Of a stretch of DNA of 64,000 bases, positions 6,593 through 47,046 are shown piece after piece; positions within the stretch are counted from its first letter, which is position 1, and each line of letters starts with the position of its first letter. The position numbers and the translations under genes are program-made. The notes below the pieces were generated by a model that made no database searches, was not told the DNA's origin, and saw only the letters and a list, made by a program, of their open reading frames with translations. The stretch comes from a virus, in IMG/VR virus record IMGVR_UViG_3300037261_000044, positions 31,228-95,227 of that record; one strand, written 5' to 3'.

Positions 6593-7700
6593 CTTCCGGT
6601 AACGCTCCTATCTTCGGCATTGGCTGGCCGCACTCCGGGCACAGGTCTTGCTGGTTCCACTCGTCTACGAGGTATCCGTAGACCTTCTCGACCTCAGCCT
6701 GCTCTTCGAGGACTTCGGTGAGTACGCTGTCGGCGTGCGTCAGGTCGAGGTGCGCGGTGTACTGGGCCTCAAGTCGCCCGTACTTCGCCAACAGAGGCAT
6801 GACCTCCGGGAGGGTGCCAATCAGCATTTCTGCCTCAGCAGCCTCATACTCACGCCGGGTGCGTCGGGCGTCGAGCAGCCAGTTGAAGGCGCTCTTCAGG
6901 CCGTCCATGGTGTCGTCGGCGGGTAGGTCTCCGATGCCTTCGACGGTACGCCGTGCCTCATCATAGAGGCCGACCTGCTGGCGCACTATGATGATGCGGC
7001 GCTGTTCCATCTCGATAAGGTCGATGCCTATGGCGACGTTCTCTAGCAACTCCACCTCTGCGTCGAGGCCGTCGAACTCTTTCATCTGTAGGTCAAGGGA
7101 CTCGATGAGTGCGCCCTCTGCGCTGAGACCTTGCTTTGCTTTCCGCAGGTCGCCGCGTATCAATCCCTGTGCTTCCACGACGACATCCAGCTTGGTCATC
7201 TTCGCCAGAGCGCGAGCAGCCTGACCATCCGGGCGGTCTATGAGGAAGGCGTACTCGCCTTGGGTGTGTATCTGGGGTGTGATGGTGAGGGTCTTGTCAA
7301 CCTCAATCTGCGCAATGCCAAGTACGCCAGACACCTCCGGCGGGACAGCCGCGCCGAGTTTGCTGAAGTGCTGCTGCTCACCGGGGTGGAGTTCACCATT
7401 GGTGTCCAGTTCGTACAGGTCATAGGTAGCGCCGCCTTCGCGCTTCTTGCGCCACCGCAGGAGGTGCGTGTTGGCGTCGCCGTCGAACAGGGTGAGGTCA
7501 ACGGTCGTCTTGTCCTTGCCGTGGGTGATGTAGTCGGTACCAGTCTGGTTGAAGCAGGCGTACCGGATAGCGCGCAGGAGCGCGGACTTTCCGGCGGCGT
7601 TGTCGCCAACGATGACGGTCAACGGCCCAAGCGGAACATCCGCGTCCAAGATGGACTGGAAGTTCTTGACTACCAGATTGCTGAACCCGCTGCGCTTCAC
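6585..7700 (-). CDS. Rad50/SbcC-like ATPase, N-terminal lobe plus zinc hook (split)
   Basis: 371 residues. The N-terminus has the Rad50 layout LVVKNFQSI...GPLTVIVGDNAAGKSALLRA (Walker A at about 32-39). A helical arm follows and the protein ends in DLCPECGQPMPK, a CxxC zinc hook where Rad50 chains normally turn back. So it is exactly the first half of a Rad50. The GTG start at 7700 overlaps the upstream stop (GTGA). ATP-driven control of DNA-end access is expected together with the genes down to 4537. Confidence 0.86.
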   Translation of the reverse strand: MKRSGFSNLVVKNFQSILDADVPLGPLTVIVGDNAAGKSALLRAIRYACFNQTGTDYITHGKDKTTVDLTLFDGDANTHLLRWRKKREGGATYDLYELDTNGELHPGEQQHFSKLGAAVPPEVSGVLGIAQIEVDKTLTITPQIHTQGEYAFLIDRPDGQAARALAKMTKLDVVVEAQGLIRGDLRKAKQGLSAEGALIESLDLQMKEFDGLDAEVELLENVAIGIDLIEMEQRRIIIVRQQVGLYDEARRTVEGIGDLPADDTMDGLKSAFNWLLDARRTRREYEAAEAEMLIGTLPEVMPLLAKYGRLEAQYTAHLDLTHADSVLTEVLEEQAEVEKVYGYLVDEWNQQDLCPECGQPMPKIGALPEDD

Positions 7701-11520: not shown

Positions 11521-12244
11521 CTTTCTTCACCTCTTCCAGCGTAACCTTACCATCAGAGAGGACGAGCGTCACGATGCCCATCAACTGTACCCATGTTAGC
11601 TTGTCGCCGCCGTTGGTGTCAATGACGTACTGAGCGTCCCACGGCTTGCCGTCCATGTCGTCCAGCCAGTGCTCGCTGCTGTGGCTGAGCGTCACGCTGG
11701 CCTTCTCCACGTCGTACCCGAGCACTTCGGTCAGGTAGTCCATCTGACGGTCATGCTCAACGAGTAGGCGGATGTGGATGGCGTTCGGCCAGCGGTTCTT
11801 CACCGCCATCACTTCGCTGTCCCGGCGGATGCTGTCGAAGACGATACCGGACTCGATGCCAGCCTGCGCCAGCGTCTTGTACGCCTCGTCGGCGACGGCC
11901 ACGCACTGGTCGGCCCAGTACGACTTATCGCGGTTGCTGAAGAACTCGCCGTAGCCTTGCAGGAGCAGGCGGTACTCAGCTTTGGTCTTCTGGTCGAGCA
12001 TCTGCTGGTAGAACGGCTCCCAGCCATCGTCAGTTTCCCAGTCGTTGAACTGCGCTGCGATGTGACGCGCCAGCGATTCTTTCATCACGTCGGCAGGTGA
12101 GCCGGACACGAAGTGGAAGTCGGTCTTGAGCCGGTTGACAATCTGGGTCTTGCCCGCGCCGATGCCGCCGGACAGGATGAACACGTACTTCGGTTCCGGG
12201 ATAATGGGCTTCTTCTTCATGGGCGTCGGCTTCTTGGCGGTCAT
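11513..12244 (-). CDS. Deoxynucleoside monophosphate kinase-like P-loop protein
   Basis: 243 residues with Walker A in YVFILSGGIGAGKTQIV (about 26-34). SGIVFDSIRRDSEVMAV and IHIRLLVEHDRQMDYL follow, the layout of T4 gp1-type dNMP kinases. It would phosphorylate dNMPs for phage DNA synthesis and may act on nucleotides released by host DNA breakdown. The ATG overlaps the primase stop by 4 bases. Other P-loop NMP kinases remain possible. Confidence 0.75.
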   Translation of the reverse strand: MTAKKPTPMKKKPIIPEPKYVFILSGGIGAGKTQIVNRLKTDFHFVSGSPADVMKESLARHIAAQFNDWETDDGWEPFYQQMLDQKTKAEYRLLLQGYGEFFSNRDKSYWADQCVAVADEAYKTLAQAGIESGIVFDSIRRDSEVMAVKNRWPNAIHIRLLVEHDRQMDYLTEVLGYDVEKASVTLSHSSEHWLDDMDGKPWDAQYVIDTNGGDKLTWVQLMGIVTLVLSDGKVTLEEVKKDA

Positions 12245-13254
12245 AGTCTTACCCTCTCCACAACCTGCATCTCGCAGCCTGTCTGCTTGTTGAACACCCT
12301 CGGCGGGTGCGCCTCTTTTAGGAACTGTACCATGCGCTCGCGCCCAAGGGAAGCCGGGTCTTCACCCTCCGGCAACTCCACGACCGTGATGCTGTTGAAC
12401 TGCACCCGGAGCCGCCAGTAGTCGTCCCAGATTTCCTGCTTGGCGTCAGCATCCCAGCACAGGACTAACTCACGCACGCCTGCGTTCAAGAGCGCGTTCA
12501 CCTGCGTGTCCGTGACTTTCTTCCCGAACGAGGCCACCGCGATGTCCTCCATGGCGAGACAGTCGAAGACGCCCTCGGTGATGACGGCGCGCTCATGGCC
12601 CCAGACCTTTTCAAGGTTGAACAGGTAGCTGTACTGCTCGTTCTTCGGCGGCGTCAGCACCTTCTTTGGCTCGGTGTCGGAGATGGAGCGGGCCACCCAG
12701 TTCACCAACTGCCCGAGGTAGTAGACCGGCACGATGATGCGCTTGCGGTAGAACCCGGTCGCCACGAACCCGACCTGATACTCGCGAATCTGTGCGCCGG
12801 TCATGCGGGTGAGCGCGTACTCCCAGTAGCGGCGGGCAGTCTCCCCGTGACTGTCCGCCAGTAGGTGGAATCCTTCGGGTAGTTCGATGACATCTGGTAG
12901 CTCGATTGCTGCATCTTCAGCCTCCTGTTCGACAACGGTGTACTCGTCGTCCTCATAGATGCTGCTGCGCTGCGCCATGATGCGGTCGATGGCTTCGTTG
13001 ATGGTGCAGCGCGCAACCTTCTGGATGAGTGCGATGGCCCAGCCGGACTCGTGGCAGTAGTGGCACTTGAAGACGCCGACGCCGACCTTCACGTAGAACG
13101 ACGTGCGATGGTGGTGACACCACGGGCACTCGCCGGAGACCTCACCATTCCGCTCACGCGCATCCAACCCGGCGTTCTCTAGGAACGACTGGAAGTCGAA
13201 CGTACGCAGCGCGCGCCGGAGTTGTCCGGGAGTGGGGCCACTATTTCTTGGCAA
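12241..13254 (-). CDS. DnaG-type primase (zinc finger plus TOPRIM)
   Basis: About 337 residues from a TTG start at 13254, which has AAGGG upstream and a 14-base overlap. An ATG at 13311 would overlap the neighbour by 71 bases and lacks a ribosome site. The N-terminal zinc finger is CPWCHHH...FKCHYC (CHC2 type). The TOPRIM domain has AVITEGVFDCLAM (catalytic Glu) and LVLCWDADAK (DxD). It makes RNA primers for the helicase encoded just upstream. No helicase is fused. Confidence 0.9.
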   Translation of the reverse strand: MPRNSGPTPGQLRRALRTFDFQSFLENAGLDARERNGEVSGECPWCHHHRTSFYVKVGVGVFKCHYCHESGWAIALIQKVARCTINEAIDRIMAQRSSIYEDDEYTVVEQEAEDAAIELPDVIELPEGFHLLADSHGETARRYWEYALTRMTGAQIREYQVGFVATGFYRKRIIVPVYYLGQLVNWVARSISDTEPKKVLTPPKNEQYSYLFNLEKVWGHERAVITEGVFDCLAMEDIAVASFGKKVTDTQVNALLNAGVRELVLCWDADAKQEIWDDYWRLRVQFNSITVVELPEGEDPASLGRERMVQFLKEAHPPRVFNKQTGCEMQVVERVRL

Positions 13255-13552
13255 GAGGACGCCCTTTGGTATCGTGCCTACCGTACGGGTTGTTGTCGTA
13301 GGTCTTGCCATAGTGCTTGTGGTCGCCGCGCTTCATGCAGCGCACCGGCTTCTTGGGGGCAGGGGCCGCAGCAGGCGGGCACAGGGCCAAAGCCATATCG
13401 TGTGCAGCGCTGCACAACTCGGCGAAGAAGAGCGCGCGTAGAGCGGCAGGGAGGCGACCCTTGACGAGCACTTCGTTCATGTTCCAAACTTCGAGTTTGG
13501 TGGCGTCCGTCAGGTCTTTGTCGCTGGCATCAGGCTTCAGGAGCATCGTCAT
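13241..13552 (-). CDS. Hypothetical protein between helicase and primase genes
   Basis: A 103-residue protein starting MTMLLKPDASDKDL, with KGRLPAALRALFFAELC in the middle and a basic tail (GDHKHYGKTYDNNPYGRHD). GAAGGAAAG precedes ATG 13552. It is sandwiched between helicase and primase genes and overlaps both, so a replisome accessory role is plausible but unproven. Confidence 0.6.
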   Translation of the reverse strand: MTMLLKPDASDKDLTDATKLEVWNMNEVLVKGRLPAALRALFFAELCSAAHDMALALCPPAAAPAPKKPVRCMKRGDHKHYGKTYDNNPYGRHDTKGRPLAKK

Positions 13553-14981
13553 CTTTCCTTCGCGACTTCCAGTGGTTGGACGCCTCAACCTCGATGTCGG
13601 TCGTGTCGTCTTCCCAATCATCGCACACTAGCTTAGCCTGAGCATACCGCGTCTTGGCCTTCACCCACCAGTTGTCGCTGCCGCCGCGCCGCAGCTTGAG
13701 CAGGTGGAGAATGCGGATGCCGTTGTCCGTCTCATCCTCGGTGCCGTCCTCATCATTGCCAATCTCATGGCCCTCGTGTTCCTTCTGCTCCTTCGACATC
13801 GAAATGATTACGTCGGCAGTGAACGCTTTGCCCAGCGCATCGGCAATGTGATGCGTCAGCACGCGCTTGCCCTTGAGACCTTCGCGGTTGGCCTGCGCCG
13901 CCGTCCACAGGACGACGTTGTGTGTCTCAGCCAAGTCGCGCAGTTCCTCGAACACCGTCTGCAACTCTTCGTACTTCTTCGATTGGTGGCTGCTCCGGCG
14001 CGCGGCAGCCATCAGGTCACCGTAGTCTACGATGACGACGGTCGGCTTCCAGTCGGCGTCTTCGAGCCGGGAGAGGTACCCGGAAAGGTCTACAGCGGTG
14101 GTGTTCGACCCGACGAGCCGCATGATTTTCAGCTTGCCGCCGAAGGTCTTCATCTCTTCAAGGCGCTCGCGGTACGCTGGCGTCAGCACCTTGTAGGACT
14201 TCAGGATTTCGCTGTTGATAGAGAGCAGATTGTACATGTACCGGGCCAGCGTTTCCTCTTTCCCGTTCTCGAAGGAGAAGTGCACCACGTTGAAGCCCCG
14301 GCGGATGGCCTCTGACCCGATGTGCACGAGCATCTGGCTCTTGCCGTAGCCCAGTGGAGCCACGATGACGTTCAGTTCCTTGCGCCGCGCGCCGCCCTCA
14401 ATCTTCCGGTCGAGCGGGGCGATGCCGATGGGTACCGTTGACTGCTTCAGCGCCTCCGGGTCGAAGAACTCAAAGAAGCGGTCAGCGTCATCGGGGAGGT
14501 TCAGCCAGTCGTCGCTGTAGCGGCGAATCATCTGCGAGTCGCGCACCACCTGCACGGCTTGGTCGAGGTCGCCATCCTCGATGAGTTCCTGCGCCTCGTG
14601 CACAGCGTGCAACGTCGCGCGGTACGTGATGAAGTTCTCGAACGTGTCCTCGACGTACTTCCGGGTTACGTCATCGAGTTCGAAGTCGTCCAGCTTGTCG
14701 AGCACGCGGACGATGAGTTTCTTCTGCTCTGCGTCGGCCTGCTTGTCCGCTTCGAGCCGCATGCGCAGCGAGGGAATCTTCGGCGCGGTCTGGTACTTCT
14801 CGTAGTGGTCGATGGCCTGTGCGGTTATCCACTTCAGTTCCATCTCGCCCCACCACGCCGGGTTGAGCAGCGGGTAGTATTCGCGCAGGAACTTGCTGTT
14901 CACGCACAGCAAGCGGAACGCGGCGAGGATGAGCGTCGGCGACTTCTCGTACTCGTAAATGCTGTCGGCTTGAACTTTCAA
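13530..14981 (-). CDS. DnaB-type replicative helicase
   Basis: 483 residues with a small N-terminal helical domain and a RecA-type motor. Walker A is NVIVAPLGYGKSQMLVHIG (about 208-226), Walker B PTVVIVDYGDLM (about 320), with the DnaB-like AQANREGL and KAFTADVIISM after it. T4 gp41-like hexameric helicases have this order. It should unwind the fork 5' to 3' with the primase encoded just downstream. Confidence 0.9.
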   Translation of the reverse strand: MKVQADSIYEYEKSPTLILAAFRLLCVNSKFLREYYPLLNPAWWGEMELKWITAQAIDHYEKYQTAPKIPSLRMRLEADKQADAEQKKLIVRVLDKLDDFELDDVTRKYVEDTFENFITYRATLHAVHEAQELIEDGDLDQAVQVVRDSQMIRRYSDDWLNLPDDADRFFEFFDPEALKQSTVPIGIAPLDRKIEGGARRKELNVIVAPLGYGKSQMLVHIGSEAIRRGFNVVHFSFENGKEETLARYMYNLLSINSEILKSYKVLTPAYRERLEEMKTFGGKLKIMRLVGSNTTAVDLSGYLSRLEDADWKPTVVIVDYGDLMAAARRSSHQSKKYEELQTVFEELRDLAETHNVVLWTAAQANREGLKGKRVLTHHIADALGKAFTADVIISMSKEQKEHEGHEIGNDEDGTEDETDNGIRILHLLKLRRGGSDNWWVKAKTRYAQAKLVCDDWEDDTTDIEVEASNHWKSRRKDDDAPEA

Positions 14982-15754
14982 AGAGCGTCATCCTCAGCTA
15001 GGCGCGCCGCGCGCGCCGCCTCTGCATCTTTTCGTTCTTTGGTTTCTGCCCGGTAACGCGCGGCCTCTGCGTGGAACTCAGCCGTCTCTTCCGGGGTTGG
15101 TTCATGGCGACGCGCAGCAGCGTTGCGCGCTCCGACGATGCGGGCAGTTTCCCATCCCTTCTCGGTTACCATCGTCGCAAGAATCTTGTCCACGCTGTAG
15201 TAGAACGACACGAACCCGAGGTCGTCTGGTGCGGTCTCCGGCGGCGCAGTGAAGAACACGCGCGCCAGTTTCGTGGCCTCGTAGGGGTCGCCGTTGCACT
15301 TGGTCATCACCCGGCGTGCAAGGCTCACTTCTTTGGCGGTGCGCGGCCACTGGTGCTGGGTGTACTTGCGGTAGAGCAGGTCGTAGTTGTTCAGGAGATA
15401 GTTCAGGGCGTCTCCCGGCGGCATGGATTGCTTCACCTCACCGAGGTGCGGAGCCAGCGCGTCGAGGTCGAGGACGGTGATGTGCATGGAGGTGATGCGC
15501 CCCTTCTCGCTGAACTGTAATTGGCATTGTAGCATGCCCAGCTTTTGCATGTCGTTCAAGAAGACGGCGAGCACCATCGTGTCGTAGTTGTGACCGAAGA
15601 TGGCGCGTATCTCTTCAACGAGGTGACGGCTTTCCCCAAGGGGAAACGTCCGCAACCGGCGGTAGGCTTCGATGTGTGCCACACCTCGCATATCCCGAAA
15701 GTTCTCGTACTCAAGCGGCCCGAAGGCATTAGCAACGACGACGGTCTTCTGCAT
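14978..15754 (-). CDS. Hypothetical replication-region protein
   Basis: 258 residues, coupled by ATGA to the helicase gene. The C-terminal 50 residues form a long charged helix (EETAEFHAEAARYRAETK, KDAEAARAARLAEDD). The centre reads MPPGDALNYLLNNYDLLYRK. I do not recognise the family. A helicase loader is an attractive guess from the neighbouring helicase and the repeat array upstream, but nothing in the sequence proves it. Confidence 0.6.
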   Translation of the reverse strand: MQKTVVVANAFGPLEYENFRDMRGVAHIEAYRRLRTFPLGESRHLVEEIRAIFGHNYDTMVLAVFLNDMQKLGMLQCQLQFSEKGRITSMHITVLDLDALAPHLGEVKQSMPPGDALNYLLNNYDLLYRKYTQHQWPRTAKEVSLARRVMTKCNGDPYEATKLARVFFTAPPETAPDDLGFVSFYYSVDKILATMVTEKGWETARIVGARNAAARRHEPTPEETAEFHAEAARYRAETKERKDAEAARAARLAEDDAL

Positions 15755-15766
15755 TCCAAACCTCAG

Positions 15767-15902
15767 TCATTCCTCCCATTCCTCCCAATTCGGGCTATTC
15801 CTCCCATCTCTACTGTCTGTACTCTTCTTTATAAGTAGATGGGAGGAATGAGTTAAATTGGGAGGAATGACTGTTTTAGCTTCAATTTCATGGGAGGAAT
15901 CA
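15767..15902. repeat. Nested inverted-repeat array, six copies of TGGGAGGAAT
   Basis: Copies in one orientation lie at 15769-15778, 15778-15787 and 15797-15806, and in the other at 15840-15849, 15859-15868 and 15891-15900. They pair concentrically: 15797-15809 with 15837-15849 (13 bases exact), 15778-15790 with 15856-15868 (13 exact), and 15767-15779 with 15890-15902 (12 of 13). The centre is AT-rich (TTCTTTATAAG). It sits just beyond a winged-helix gene and upstream of the helicase region. It is a candidate replication origin or operator. Confidence 0.85.
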
Positions 15903-16211
15903 TTCCCACTCCCCCTCGTCTATTTCCACCAATCCCGCCCTGTCGAGACCTTCGAGGGCACGCATAAACCCAGCCTTGGTCATCGTGCCAGTCCCGCCCC
16001 AGATGGAGCCGTGCACGGTGTCACCTATTCCCCGAGCCATGGCTGCCACTGTCGTCCGGCCACCGAATGAGGGAGCCGTGGCTATCCACCGGAGGTACCG
16101 ATAGACCTGCTGCTCGGGCACCGTGAGTTTGTCGCGCGTCTGCTTCCAGACCGCTGGCTCTACCAACCCTTCGATACCGGGCGTTGCGGCGAGTGTTACG
16201 GTCTCATCCAT
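15900..16211 (-). CDS. Winged-helix DNA-binding protein, possible replication initiator or repressor
   Basis: A 103-residue protein. LTVPEQQVYRYLRWIATAP, TTVAAMARGIG and TKAGFMRALEGLDRAGLVEI form a helix-turn-helix with a wing, as in MarR or Rep-type proteins. Its stop codon lies inside the last TGGGAGGAAT copy, so the likely binding site directly adjoins the gene. Start ATG 16211 follows the previous stop (TGATG). I infer it binds the array, as initiator or autoregulator. Confidence 0.68.
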   Translation of the reverse strand: MDETVTLAATPGIEGLVEPAVWKQTRDKLTVPEQQVYRYLRWIATAPSFGGRTTVAAMARGIGDTVHGSIWGGTGTMTKAGFMRALEGLDRAGLVEIDEGEWE

Positions 16212-19159: not shown

Positions 19160-19810
19160 GTGAAGAAAATCATCATCGGGCTGGCACTGGGCTTGGCACT
19201 CATCGGTGCTCTAATCTTTGGCGCTAGGCAGGTTTCGTGGACGAATAACAGTTCGGGCGGTGCGGCAACAGCGGCACCGGTTCCTCTCCCGGCGGCATGG
19301 TTCAACAACGGAGACGAGTCGTACGGTGCACTGATGCGCAACTCGAATCACTGGGAGTGGGAGTTGACGCTCTCTATCTCTGAGATTCTACTGCTCGATG
19401 TGTTCATAGGGTTGATAGTGTGGCCGCGCATACACCGCGACATCAAGCGGCATGGAGTCAAGCCCGCCCACGGTGACTTCTACTGCAATGACCCGGCGCA
19501 CGACTGCGACTACCAAGACGTGACGTTGCCCAGCCTTGCCCAGCGCATCGAGCGCCTAGAGTCTGAGTCAGCAACAGCGTTCGCACGCGGGCATGCGGCG
19601 GCTGTAAGAGAGGATGCCGACCTGCGCTCTGGGAAGACCGGCGCGCGGCTCCGTGCCGAGGCGTGCCCTCACGGAGTAACGCCCGACATCTGTGGCATGT
19701 GCCACCCGGAAAACTTCGCCGGTATCGCCACCAAGGTCTCCCGCAACGACATCGTAGGTACTGAAGTCATCCACGCGCGCACGGATGATTGGTGGCCCGG
19801 AAATCCCTGA
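19160..19810 (+). CDS. Two-pass membrane protein with Cys-rich cytoplasmic tail
   Basis: 216 residues. A signal-anchor-like helix (IIIGLALGLALIGALIFGA) is followed by an extracellular loop and a second helix (ISEILLLDVFIGLIVW). The tail then contains CNDPAHDCDY, a coiled segment (LAQRIERLESE) and ACPHGVTPDICGMCHPENF, another probable zinc site. It is coupled by TGATG to the polymerase gene. Function unknown. Confidence 0.68.
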   Translation: MKKIIIGLALGLALIGALIFGARQVSWTNNSSGGAATAAPVPLPAAWFNNGDESYGALMRNSNHWEWELTLSISEILLLDVFIGLIVWPRIHRDIKRHGVKPAHGDFYCNDPAHDCDYQDVTLPSLAQRIERLESESATAFARGHAAAVREDADLRSGKTGARLRAEACPHGVTPDICGMCHPENFAGIATKVSRNDIVGTEVIHARTDDWWPGNP

Positions 19811-22800
19811 TGGAAGATTTTCCGTACGCCTGCAAACATCGCTCTCAGACCGTCTCTCCCCTGACCCCTGAAGGTTGGTGGGAGAGTCGCGTTAATGACG
19901 ACCAGCCGCGCATGCTGGTCATCACCGGCTGGCCCAACAAGGACGAGATGGAGCGGGGCCGGATGAACGAAGGGAAGGTCAAGCGTAAGCTGGGCCAGAT
20001 GTTTGCACGCGCCGGAGTCCCCATGGGGCAGGTCGCGTTCGCGCCGCTCCTGTGCTGGCGTCCTGACACCGACCGCGAGCCGACCGAGAAGGAAGTCGCG
20101 GAGTGCCGCGCCCACCTCCTTGACTACGTTGATGACCTGAATCCTAACGTCATTCTGACCATGGGCGTCCCGGCGCTCGACGGCTGCCACGAGCCGCTGT
20201 CCATCTACATGCGCCGGGGCGAGGTCTTCAAGTCCAAGGTCTTCGGCAAGAAGCTGGTACCGACGTTTGCGCCGGGGCTGGTGCTGCGGGAGTGGGACAA
20301 GCAGAAGACGATAGAGCATGACCTCCGGCGCGCATGGGAGCAGGCGCAGACGCCGGAGTTCCCGCTGGGTCTGGGCGACGACTACTTCGTGTGCATCACG
20401 CCGGAGGAAGTGAAGGGCGCGCTTGACTACCTGACTGACCGGCCCATCGCCTCCTTCGACATCGAGACTGAGGGCTTCAATCTCTTTGAGCAAGATGAGA
20501 TTCTGTGCGTGCAGATTTCCAGCAAGACCGGGGAAGGCTTCGTCTTCCCGCTGCGCGGCGCGTGGGCGCGGCACAAGAAAGACAAGTACGCGGACTGGCA
20601 GCTTGAGCATGGCATCTGGGGCGAGGGCAAGAACGAGCACGGGCAGGTCAAGCGCGTCCTGTTCGATGGCGAGTCCATGGCGAACCATGAGCGCGACAAG
20701 CGCCGCAAGGTCAAGGTCTTCCACCCGGCGTTCCCGACTGGGAGCGTCATCTGCCAGACGCCGGACGCGCACAATCCATACAGCCCTGCGTACGAGAAGC
20801 AGCAGCACATCTGCCGGGGCACCGTCACCAATGTTTTGCGTGGTGCCCTAGAGCCGTGCACGATGCCGGGTCAGATGCTCGGCAAGGAAGTCCCGCACGA
20901 TTATAATGTCATCGCCGGAATGCTGCGCGATTGGCTGCAAGGGCAGACCAAGAAGGCCGCACAGAACGGTAAGTTCGACGTGAAGGGTCTGCTGTACCAA
21001 CTCGGCATCAAGGTCGAGAACTTTGTGTTCGACACCATCCTCGCGTACCACATCATTCACGAAGAGTTCCCGCACGACCTCGATACCATTCGTTCGTTCG
21101 TCACGTGGATGCCGCGCTACAACGAGTACCTGAAGACGTTCGTGCCATCGAAGAAGCACTCGTTCGCGCTGGTGCCCAATGAGGTGCTGTGGACGTACGG
21201 TGCCGCCGACGCCGACTGTGAGTTCCGCATCATCGAGCCGCTGATGGAGTGGCTGCTGGAAGACAATCCGGCGGATGGGCAGTGGCTCTTCGACAACATC
21301 GCGATGCCGCTGCAACGCACGCTCACGCAGATTGAGGGCAACGGCATCCTCGTCAACCGCGACCGGCTGACGCAACTCAGCCAGTGGTACCGCGAGAAGA
21401 TTGACTCGCTGCGCACGCTGCTCTCCGAGATGGCGCACGACGACGGTTTCACCGAACCCGAGAAGTGGCACAACGACAACGACCTTCGCGAGTGGATGTT
21501 CAAGGCCGACTACGAGCACGAGGTGCGCAAGGGTACGCTCCATACGTGCAAGGCGTGCCACGGCAAGGACTGGGAACTCTGCGAAGAGTGCGTGGAAGGC
21601 AAGGTACCGGGCCGGGAGCCGGAGATGGTCGCGTGCAAGGGCATCAACTTCCCGACGTACATGGCGTGGAAGTCGAAGAAGACCGGCCAGCCATCCACCG
21701 GCAAGAAGTCATTCGCCGCGCTGCGTGCGTGGTGCCGGGAAGAGTTCAAGTACACGATGCGCCAGACCGGCAACCGCCGCGACGGCACGCCCATCATGTC
21801 GCGCTTCATCACGAAGACGGAACTGAAGCCCAGCGCCCGCGCATACCGCGCCCGCATGGCTGAGTACCTTGATGCCATCGAGCAGTTGAAGAAGTGCATC
21901 AAGGCGAAGAATCAGTTCCTCGATGGCGACGACGAGAAGCAGGTCGTGGGCGCGAAGGCGCTGCTGGCGCACATCAAGCGCGACGGGCGCGTGCACACGA
22001 CCTTCAACCAACTGGTCGAGACGGCACGCCTGTCGTCCCGCGACCCGAACATGCAGAACCAGACGAACTCCGGCGAGTGCGGCATTCACCAAGAACAGGG
22101 CGTGCGATGTCCAGCCGGATGTCCCGGCGAGTACCGGCACTACAGCATCCGGTCGATGTACACCGTCAAGGAGGGTTGTAAGTGGGTCGCCGCTGACTAC
22201 CGGTCAGAGGAAGTCCGCATCATGGCGTACCTTGCGGGCGATATGAAGCTGCTGGAAGCGACCATGACGTGCTACGGGCCGAAGAAGGTCGGTGGCTGCG
22301 GCCTCGTCTTCCTCCCAACTGAGGACGACCCGGAGCGCCCGCTCAAGATGCTCAAGCACGAGCGTGACGAGGGCCATGTCGCCGCTGATGTCCACCAGTG
22401 GGTGGCGTCGCAGGTCTTCGGCGTCGCCTACGATGCCGTCACCAAAGAGCAGCGCCGCCAGTGCAAGAGCGTCACCTTCGGCATCGCCTACGGGCAGTCG
22501 GAGATGGGTCTGGCCGATGCGCTGGGCTGGACGGTGGAGCGCGCCGCCGCGCTCATCAAGCTGTACTTCCAGACCTTTCCCGACCTCGCCAAGTACCAGA
22601 AGAAGTGTGAGGGCGGCACGTTCCACGGCATGGACAGCATCAACGGCTTCGGTCGCAAGCGCCACACATTCGGCCCGGTCGAGATGAAGCCGTACGTCCG
22701 GGAGTGGGACTGGAAGAAGGTCGTCAACGCGATGTCGCGGGAACGCCTGAACTTCCCGACGCAGAGCACTGCCGCCGAGGTCATCAGCCTTGTCACCATC

Positions 22801-23154
22801 GCGCTGGGCGACGTGTGGGGCTATGAGACCGGGGAGAACACGGTCGCCCACCGGCTGGGCAAGCAACTGTGCGGCGGCGTCGCCCCGGCGCTGACCTTGC
22901 GCGACCTCGCCATCTCGATTATTCTGACAGTACACGACGCCCTTGAGTTCGAGTGCCCGGAAGAGCACGTCGAGCGCCTGTGCGGCATCATCGAGGATGT
23001 GATGGTGGGCATTCCGTGGAAAATCTTGGGTTGGTTTTTGCCTGTTGACATTTCGGTAGGTCGTTACTGGGACGACACGCACGACGAGGATGAGTATGCG
23101 GCAGAACGAGAAGCGTTCGATGTGCCTGACGATGAAGCCGAAGAAGCAGCATGA
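19810..23154 (+). CDS. polA: DNA polymerase I fused to an N-terminal uracil-DNA glycosylase-like domain
   Basis: 1114 residues. Residues 35-165 resemble family 4/5 uracil-DNA glycosylases (MLVITGWPNKDE, FAPLLCWRPDTDREPTEKEV, PNVILTMGVPAL). A 3'-5' exonuclease follows (ASFDIETEGF, D217/E219). The family A polymerase domain has motif A WVAADYRSEEVRIMAYLAGD (D796), motif B RRQCKSVTFGIAYGQSEMG and motif C ILTVHDALEFE (D1043). There is no 5'-3' exonuclease. Unusual Cys-rich insertions occur at about 577-605 (HTCKACHGK...LCEECVEG), 754-775 and 820-835. SPO1-type phages have comparable UDG-polymerase fusions. Start ATG 19810 overlaps the previous stop. Confidence 0.92.
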   Translation: MEDFPYACKHRSQTVSPLTPEGWWESRVNDDQPRMLVITGWPNKDEMERGRMNEGKVKRKLGQMFARAGVPMGQVAFAPLLCWRPDTDREPTEKEVAECRAHLLDYVDDLNPNVILTMGVPALDGCHEPLSIYMRRGEVFKSKVFGKKLVPTFAPGLVLREWDKQKTIEHDLRRAWEQAQTPEFPLGLGDDYFVCITPEEVKGALDYLTDRPIASFDIETEGFNLFEQDEILCVQISSKTGEGFVFPLRGAWARHKKDKYADWQLEHGIWGEGKNEHGQVKRVLFDGESMANHERDKRRKVKVFHPAFPTGSVICQTPDAHNPYSPAYEKQQHICRGTVTNVLRGALEPCTMPGQMLGKEVPHDYNVIAGMLRDWLQGQTKKAAQNGKFDVKGLLYQLGIKVENFVFDTILAYHIIHEEFPHDLDTIRSFVTWMPRYNEYLKTFVPSKKHSFALVPNEVLWTYGAADADCEFRIIEPLMEWLLEDNPADGQWLFDNIAMPLQRTLTQIEGNGILVNRDRLTQLSQWYREKIDSLRTLLSEMAHDDGFTEPEKWHNDNDLREWMFKADYEHEVRKGTLHTCKACHGKDWELCEECVEGKVPGREPEMVACKGINFPTYMAWKSKKTGQPSTGKKSFAALRAWCREEFKYTMRQTGNRRDGTPIMSRFITKTELKPSARAYRARMAEYLDAIEQLKKCIKAKNQFLDGDDEKQVVGAKALLAHIKRDGRVHTTFNQLVETARLSSRDPNMQNQTNSGECGIHQEQGVRCPAGCPGEYRHYSIRSMYTVKEGCKWVAADYRSEEVRIMAYLAGDMKLLEATMTCYGPKKVGGCGLVFLPTEDDPERPLKMLKHERDEGHVAADVHQWVASQVFGVAYDAVTKEQRRQCKSVTFGIAYGQSEMGLADALGWTVERAAALIKLYFQTFPDLAKYQKKCEGGTFHGMDSINGFGRKRHTFGPVEMKPYVREWDWKKVVNAMSRERLNFPTQSTAAEVISLVTIALGDVWGYETGENTVAHRLGKQLCGGVAPALTLRDLAISIILTVHDALEFECPEEHVERLCGIIEDVMVGIPWKILGWFLPVDISVGRYWDDTHDEDEYAAEREAFDVPDDEAEEAA

Positions 23155-41001: not shown

Positions 41002-42585
41002 GGTGAACGTCAACGAACGCCTAACGCGCCGTGGCTTTATTGTCCGTGAATCGTGCCGGGTCATATCCGCGAAGGGTTGCCCGTGCCAACACAAACGAAG
41101 CGCCTAACCGGCGCATAGCTACCATCGGAACGCGCCATGCATCCGTCGTTGCTCACCTACTCATGTCCGCCTAGTTACACTCCCGCTTAGCGAATCCTCC
41201 TGAATCCTACAGCGCCGCAACGGGTCGTATAGAGTCGCTGAGCTACGCACAACTAGGTACACGTAGCAGAGGAATCCCCCGCCGGTCGTTTCGCGCTTCA
41301 AGGGTGTGTGTGCTTCGAAGTTCGCTCTACAAGCGCCGGGGTTCGTGGGCTACGGTGCGCGGGGTACCTGTTATCACCGATGCCGGAAGCATCGCAGCGG
41401 GTCAGGTGCGCATCAGGTTTCGACCGGCGCTTAGGTGTCGCTTAGGTTTCGCCATGAGGCTATCGCCACGGGGGAGCAGGCACGCATCCTAGCGCTTCAC
41501 CCTGCTAATCACACTCCCCACCCCGCTCGCGTCCCGGTTAGAGCCGAGTCTGCGGATTGGTTTCGCGCCCCGATTGCCAGCGTTCGGGGGGATTCTCATC
41601 TGGCGTCACGTGTTACAACACAATCATCGGGCGTACGTTTCAAGCCTGAAGGGGTCAGGGCAGTTTCTTTCAAAGATTGTTGCTCGACAACGAGCCTTCG
41701 TATCTGGGAGAGGCCAAAACACGCGCAACAGGTAGCACAATCGACCCGGCGCGCCACCCTCACGCCCAATCCCTACGCACCCGGCGCGCGCCACCCCGCC
41801 CGCCTGTCAACCTAACGACAGGCGACGCCCGCAACCATCCGGCCCATGCATCCGAAACACTAGCCAGCACCGCCACCAAACGACCACTCCCGCCCATGCA
41901 CCCCGCGTTACCCTGACAATCACTCCCGCCGGTACACTCACGACCGCACCCAACACACCACCCCGCCACGCCACCGCTAACGCATACTCGCGACGTTCAC
42001 GCCCTCATCACGCCACCCCTACGCACCCTCACGCCACCCTCACGCCACCATGCGCCCGGTACCCACCCATGCACCGCACCTCTGCCACCGTACGCGCGGC
42101 GACGGAAGCCAGCGACGGAAGCGCCGACAGGCGCGCCCGGAGTCTGAGCTAGCCACCGCGTTGGGAGTCGCGCCCGCAGCGCCAATCCGCCACGACTCGC
42201 GACGCACGACTCCCAGCGGCCATGATGACGCGCGTTCTATAGGCGCGACGGCCTCGAACTACCGCTTCCGACTCAAAGCGGCAGTAGGTGAAGCTGCGAC
42301 CGGCATACGTTGCGCTTCGAAGCTGAGCGCGGCAGGTCGGCAGCCCGTGCCACCAGCCGCCACCTACCGACAGCCCGGTAGGTGGCAGAGGTTCGGCGGT
42401 GCGCCCGCGCCCGCCCTGCCAACTTTGTATCATGCCACGGCGCTAACGCCTCCCAAAATGGCAGCATATACCGGCTCAACACTCAGACCGGGTTGACCTT
42501 AGCGCCCTGAGTTCTCGCCCTCGACTCGGGATGGGGGACATCCGGGAGCCGCAAAATCCCCGGAAAATTGCGCGTACCCCTCGGC
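41002..42585. other. Non-coding divergent region
   Basis: About 1.6 kb without a credible gene. Short frames here (for example near 41435-41815 and 42050-42496) have low-complexity, Arg/Pro-rich products and no ribosome sites. From about 41750 to 42110 the plus strand is strongly C- and A-rich with very few G, containing repeats of CACGCCACC and CCTCACGCC. No tRNA could be recognised. Origin, packaging or regulatory functions are possible. Confidence 0.7.
42359..42386. terminator. Strong hairpin in the divergent region
   Basis: GCCACCTACCG (42359-42369) pairs exactly with CGGTAGGTGGC (42376-42386) over a 6-base loop. There is no T-tract. It may insulate the promoter downstream or be a structured RNA/DNA element. 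Confidence 0.55.
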
Positions 42586-46679: not shown

Positions 46680-46876
46680 GCAATCAAGTAGGTGACATGG
46701 ACGAGATAGACATCGCGCTCGCTGCCAAGCAGGCCGCAGGCGAAGCCCCGGCGCTCATCACACGCGAGCAGCGCCAGCACATCCGGTACTGGGACTTCTT
46801 CATTCACGACCTCGACATGCGGGAGAAGCTGTACCAAGGTCGCCTTGCAGCATCTACGCATCCCGTGGTAAGCTAG
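46676..46876 (+). CDS. Hypothetical small protein (GTG start)
   Basis: 66 residues; GTG overlaps the previous stop. DEIDIALAAKQAAGEAPALI then HIRYWDFFIHDLDMREKLY. A promoter -10 element overlaps its stop codon. Confidence 0.58.
   Translation: MSNQVGDMDEIDIALAAKQAAGEAPALITREQRQHIRYWDFFIHDLDMREKLYQGRLAASTHPVVS
46845..46874 (+). promoter_or_regulatory. Promoter for the 46951 operon
   Basis: TTGCAG (46845-46850), 18-base spacer, TAAGCT (46869-46874), inside the end of the previous gene. A 75-base leader follows with a T-run near 46904-46910. Confidence 0.6.
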
Positions 46877-46950
46877 ACCCAGAAAGAGAAGAAAACGTAC
46901 TTGTTTTTTTCACGAAATAGCTTCAAACTCCTGAAGAGGAAGTACAACGG

Positions 46951-47046
46951 ATGAGTGATGGTGTTCTGATTCCGCTTATCTTTCTCGGCTACATTGTGTT
47001 CTTCCTTGCTCTCTGGTTCCTGATGGGATGGTGGCAGAACAGATGA
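46951..47046 (+). CDS. 31-residue membrane peptide
   Basis: MSDGVLIPLIFLGYIVFFLA followed by LWFLMGWWQNR: a single transmembrane helix. GAGGAAG lies upstream and the stop overlaps the DUF3291 gene (ATGA). Confidence 0.58.
   Translation: MSDGVLIPLIFLGYIVFFLALWFLMGWWQNR

Follow-up and report, generated by a model that had tools for sequence, protein, structure and literature searches.

A replication gene cluster carries an intergenic array of facing repeats

The viral record IMGVR_UViG_3300037261_000044 (95,227 bp) contains a replication gene cluster in which an array of short repeats separates the genes of two small proteins, P1 and P2. All coordinates are positions in the window, the 64,000-nt stretch of this record that was analysed. 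Downstream of the array on the minus strand follow P2, a DnaB-like helicase and a primase, while a UvsW-like helicase gene lies upstream of P1 (Table 1). Further genes nearby encode UvsX/RecA-like, gp32-like and SbcCD-like proteins and a family-A DNA polymerase. Judged by family matches, the gene set around the array is a T4/SPO1-like replisome. The P1 stop codon (TGA, 15900-15902) touches the outermost repeat copy. ORF coordinates and family matches confirm this placement at the stop codon of a 103-residue protein and near DnaB and primase genes, which had been described in an initial sequence-only reading. A 1121-aa ORF on the plus strand (19789-23154) is a fusion of two parts, a uracil-DNA-glycosylase domain at residues 36-183 and a family-A DNA polymerase that includes a 3'-5' exonuclease region. 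Outside the replication region, about five TCACGCCACCC units are arranged in tandem at 41997-42049.

Table 1. Features of the array and of its gene neighborhood in the window.
Feature	Positions	Strand	Basis
DNA primase	12241..13311	-	phrog_47 E 1.4e-48
DnaB-like replicative helicase	13530..14981	-	Pfam DnaB_C E 1.9e-14, phrog_19 E 1.2e-56
P2, 258 aa, predicted N-terminal winged-helix topology and helical C-terminus, candidate initiator/helicase loader	14978..15754	-	ORF; model
Iteron L1, TGGGAGGAAT	15769..15778	-	exact match
Iteron L2, TGGGAGGAAT	15778..15787	-	exact match
9-bp spacer ATTCGGGCT	15788..15796	.	sequence
Iteron L3, TGGGAGGAAT	15797..15806	-	exact match
A+T-rich centre and inner flank, predicted DNA unwinding element, includes iteron R3	15807..15860	.	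duplex stability
Iteron R3, TGGGAGGAAT	15840..15849	+	exact match
9-bp spacer GAGTTAAAT	15850..15858	.	sequence
Iteron R2, TGGGAGGAAT	15859..15868	+	exact match
Iteron R1, TGGGAGGAAT, touches P1 stop codon	15891..15900	+	exact match
P1, 103 aa, winged-helix-like, candidate iteron-binding protein	15900..16211	-	ORF; 48% identity to L011 counterpart
UvsW-like / ResIII helicase, upstream of P1	16471..18066	-	Pfam ResIII E 8.3e-18, phrog_16 E 7.4e-68

The 10-mer TGGGAGGAAT occurs in six exact copies at 15769-15900, three per strand within 132 bp, and all six are oriented toward one A+T-rich centre. Exact matching thereby bears out the copy number given in the sequence-only reading and yields no further copy in the window or in the whole 95,227-bp record. 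With up to one mismatch allowed, 8 matches are present in the window compared to 2.16 expected, a number reached in none of 100 shuffles. In 3.84 Mb of Markov sequence with matched dinucleotide make-up, no 8-mer reached three copies per strand inside 260 bp; other phage loci, 1.27 Mb in total, contained a single such case. Such a non-random cluster of multiple short repeats is a feature of iteron origins. A search of IMG/VR for the same repeat pair returned just three unrelated matches with one facing pair each.

The copies had been described as three concentric nested inverted repeats. They are indeed nested, but concentricity is limited to the inner two pairs: L3/R3 and L2/R2 have a common mirror centre at 15823.0 and identical 19-bp steps, whereas the outermost pair, L1/R1, is centered at 15834.5. 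Neighboring copies are separated by steps of 9 or 19 bp with the exception of the outermost right copy (32 bp), and the longest perfect arm pair measures 15 bp (15764-15778 with 15859-15873). The spacers at paired positions (15788-15796 and 15850-15858) are both 9 bp long and complementary at 3 of 9 positions; the left one is perhaps a decayed iteron unit. That spacer length is kept and base pairing is not fits in-register protein binding rather than selection for an RNA stem.

The weakest duplex of the record lies at the array centre

In nearest-neighbor stability calculations over all 95,227 bp of the record, the least stable segments of 30, 50 and 80 bp begin at 15809-15811. The array centre is consequently the weakest duplex of the record, and an A+T-rich predicted unwinding element lies directly beside the iterons, as in iteron origins. 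Next in rank is the stretch at 46868-46960, where no iteron array was seen; it is possibly a promoter or secondary site. Cumulative GC skew, suggested in the sequence-only reading as a means of locating the origin, shows a local minimum near 18.0 kb, 2 kb away from the array. This minimum coincides with a gene-strand switch, so skew is confounded and gives the origin reading no independent support; GC and AT skew were set aside as origin evidence.

P1 and P2 are likely winged-helix proteins

Family searches with P1 and P2 and fold searches with their models gave no significant match; P2 yielded a weak hint of the PadR type (E 0.19). The AlphaFold model of P2, which rests on two sequences, shows an a1-b1-a2-a3-b2-b3 order over residues 26-95 corresponding to a winged-helix topology (pLDDT 56), while the P1 model is helical and helix-turn-helix-like (pLDDT 70). 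Given the low confidence of the models and the non-significant fold matches, a winged helix is likely rather than proved for P1 or P2. Neither protein matches a known initiator family, and Phage_rep_O (PF04492) is absent from both and from the whole record. For RepA_N (PF06970), the record gave no match, but neither did the control genomes; P1 and P2 had no Pfam match to this family. No relatives of P1 or P2 were found in cultured phages, and scans of IMG/VR with P2 returned a single relative, described below. The candidate initiator is likely P1, P2 or both.

A close relative keeps the architecture with a different iteron

The relative, IMG/VR contig 3300015360_001484 (L011), was the sole close one in scans of viral contigs with DnaB, helicase and P2 segments; genome contigs yielded none. 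Its gene order matches that of the window: helicase, small ORF, P1, array, P2, DnaB and primase. Identities to the window proteins are 69% for the helicase, 64% for DnaB and 66% for the primase, and 48% and 43% for P1 and P2, respectively. The P1-P2 gap of L011 contains three AATGTGCCC-type units, an A+T-rich centre and then eight AGGCACATT-type copies, so that three inverted and eight direct copies of a 9-mer are present, all at strict 9-bp steps. This 9-mer, AGGCACATT, is unrelated in sequence to TGGGAGGAAT of the window. The centre of the L011 array ranks first as the least stable DNA of its locus at both 30 and 50 bp.

Between the two phages, the mirrored form, the register of about 9 bp and the weak centre are kept while the iteron sequence is replaced. 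This combination fits iterons that evolve together with their initiator and not a conserved operator sequence or RNA. The comparison with this one relative is our strongest evidence and suggests that the conserved entity is a DNA-protein recognition array. As a single close relative was found, the case for a conserved mirrored form is built on two arrays.

Arrays in the helicase-DnaB interval of more distant phages

More distant loci, whose UvsW-like helicases are about 22-31% identical to that of the window, were fetched via a conserved helicase segment. A helicase-DnaB interval was present in 17 non-redundant loci, L011 included, and in four of them it carries an array of 4 or more copies: L011, L107 (six AAAGTGGTA units), L124 (eight GCGTACCAC units) and L127 (four ATTGTCAAA units). 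The flanks of these loci never contain more than 3 copies. The remaining 13 of 17 have no clear array in the slot. In L144, where DnaB was not detected, two mirrored TGTGACG/CGTCACA clusters directly follow the helicase; the segment L144:5808-5989 comprises two 37-bp clusters of facing sites, which lie in a 509-aa ORF, and after them three A+T-rich repeats of 15 bp; from its sequence, it is a candidate for a compact origin. In L011, L107, L124, L127 and L144, the weakest 50-mer of the locus is found within the array or next to it. In array-less loci this 50-mer falls inside the interval in 4 of 13 cases, near the expectation from interval lengths. In L107, L127 and L144 the array is situated within a large initiator-like ORF. 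The occurrence of iteron arrays beside weak DNA in several loci makes the helicase slot look like an origin slot in a wider phage group. Profile comparison, with two sequences per profile, gave no homology between P1 or P2 and the slot proteins of Herelleviridae, L107 and L127.

Two further observations concern L124. The near-identical contig L123 differs from it by 107 bp between helicase and DnaB (ca. 6950-7330) and falls short of its eight GCGTACCAC copies, either through copy-number variation or through assembly collapse. The UvsW-like helicase ORF of L124 (2997-5261) contains a large P-loop insertion with intein-like features (CLAGDTEI...HN motifs).

The array is probably a replication origin

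We assign a probability of roughly 77% to the array being the replication origin of this phage, composed of facing iterons and an unwinding element with P1/P2 as candidate initiator. This reading is favored because six exact iterons surround the weakest DNA, the architecture recurs in L011, arrays occupy the slot in distant loci, and DnaB and primase are encoded downstream. The sequence-only reading had likewise proposed an iteron origin with an adjacent initiator, naming P1 alone and omitting P2 on the other side of the array; the origin part is strengthened by L011, the weak centre and the distant arrays, whereas P1 is not the sole candidate, P2 being equally good.

Two facing sets of short iterons flank the A+T-rich predicted unwinding element, and we infer that a winged-helix initiator encoded alongside (P1, P2 or both) would bind them in a fixed register of about 9 bp. 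Binding at both sides would melt the weak centre. The C-terminal region of P2, or a partner, may then recruit the DnaB-like helicase, whose gene comes next, and the primase would follow. With iterons facing each other from the two sides of the melt, each side could receive one helicase, resulting in two divergent forks.

Alternatively, the array could be an operator with no origin role, at which P1 (or P2) would bind the mirrored repeats cooperatively, loop the DNA and control P2, DnaB and primase. The array immediately precedes P2 in a run of genes on one strand, and repressors are commonly small winged-helix proteins. However, a search limited to sigma-70-like promoters found none in or at the array, the eleven copies that L011 carries at strict 9-bp steps, like the stability minimum of the whole record, exceed the needs of an operator, and the arrays of L107, L127 and L144 lie within coding sequence, unlike operators. 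We therefore consider a pure operator unlikely. Since initiators often autoregulate, an operator would be compatible with the origin as an additional role, and the operator alternative raised in the sequence-only reading is in this sense retained, if weaker than the origin.

An RNA element is less probable still. In this scenario, a hairpin in the P1-P2 transcript would attenuate transcription, block P2 translation or stabilize the mRNA. Strong folds are predicted in both phages (z -5.5 and -7.3), but such folding is expected of any mirrored array, and the spacers at paired positions keep their length and not their complementarity. The L011 array is moreover asymmetric, its copies being divided 8 to 3 between the two sides, and neither a T-tract or intrinsic terminator nor a credible Rfam family is present at the array. 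Rfam microRNA matches there were sub-threshold and could be produced by any long hairpin. The repeat does include a Shine-Dalgarno-like GGAGG that could serve a block of P2 translation; it was set aside as the L011 unit is without it. The least probable alternative, at a very low likelihood, is that a small winged-helix protein binds the array as a site for partition or anchoring, in the manner of TubR/tubC or ParB: sites of this sort are typically iteron clusters and P1 is similar in size to TubR-like proteins, but no tubulin-family (TubZ) protein was found in the record and the setting of the array is a replication operon.

Relation of the putative origin to known systems

Taken as an origin, the array is closest to iteron origins of two kinds. 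Lambdoid origins have iterons and an A+T-rich tract within gene O (PMC7466680). The window array resembles the lambda origin in its several iterons, the adjacent A+T-rich unwinding tract and the nearby helicase-loading system. In contrast to lambda, it is intergenic, mirrored about its A+T-rich centre and built on unit steps of about 9 bp, and P1 and P2 do not match Phage_rep_O. The location of the origin inside gene O has its counterpart in L107, L127 and L144 and not in the window. In the origins of PICI/SaPI satellites, two iteron sets flank an A+T-rich region, a form said to be absent from any other bacterial replicon (PMC6092414). The window array shares with them the number of sets and their placement around an A+T-rich region. 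A Rep/Pri initiator is encoded directly upstream of PICI/SaPI origins, whereas the window has a 103-aa ORF without such a match; its neighbors are two small winged-helix-like proteins and DnaB in a T4/SPO1-like replisome. RepA_N origins, for example that of PLE of Vibrio cholerae, combine a winged-helix-type initiator domain with repeats beside the rep gene (PMC7145576). RepA_N iterons are direct repeats with internal dyads, whereas the units of the window have a single polarity and face each other across the centre.

The Herelleviridae module consisting of a UvsW-like helicase, a protein X and DnaB shares its gene slot with the window. In LysYB1, a winged-helix region of X matches phage replication initiators (E 5e-5). 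In LysYB1 and Adastra, however, the slot is without an iteron array, and X is without detectable homology to P1 or P2. The statement in the sequence-only reading that no phage element of this form was known needs qualifying, given the closeness of lambda-type origins and the similar two-set layout of PICI/SaPI. By analogy, the window array may be regarded as a variant of the iteron origin, PICI/SaPI-like in layout and lambda-like in genetic logic, and a member of neither group.

More tentatively, the locus may represent a split-initiator origin, a possibility that we consider doubtful. P1 would be the DNA-binding unit and P2 the helicase recruiter, together equivalent to one O-like protein in distant phages, and the origin would lie between them where in lambda the iterons sit inside gene O. 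The mirrored iterons would load two helicases symmetrically and could be swapped wholesale while the register of about 9 bp, the mirror and the weak centre are kept.

Among large lytic phages that have a T4/SPO1-like replisome, most have an origin that is either unmapped or not known to be iteron-based. The array described here is open to a direct test that takes two small proteins and a DNA fragment of 150 bp, and the exchange of iterons between the window phage and L011 constitutes a ready specificity experiment. If the array is an origin, its mirrored form would explain symmetric bidirectional helicase loading by simple geometry.
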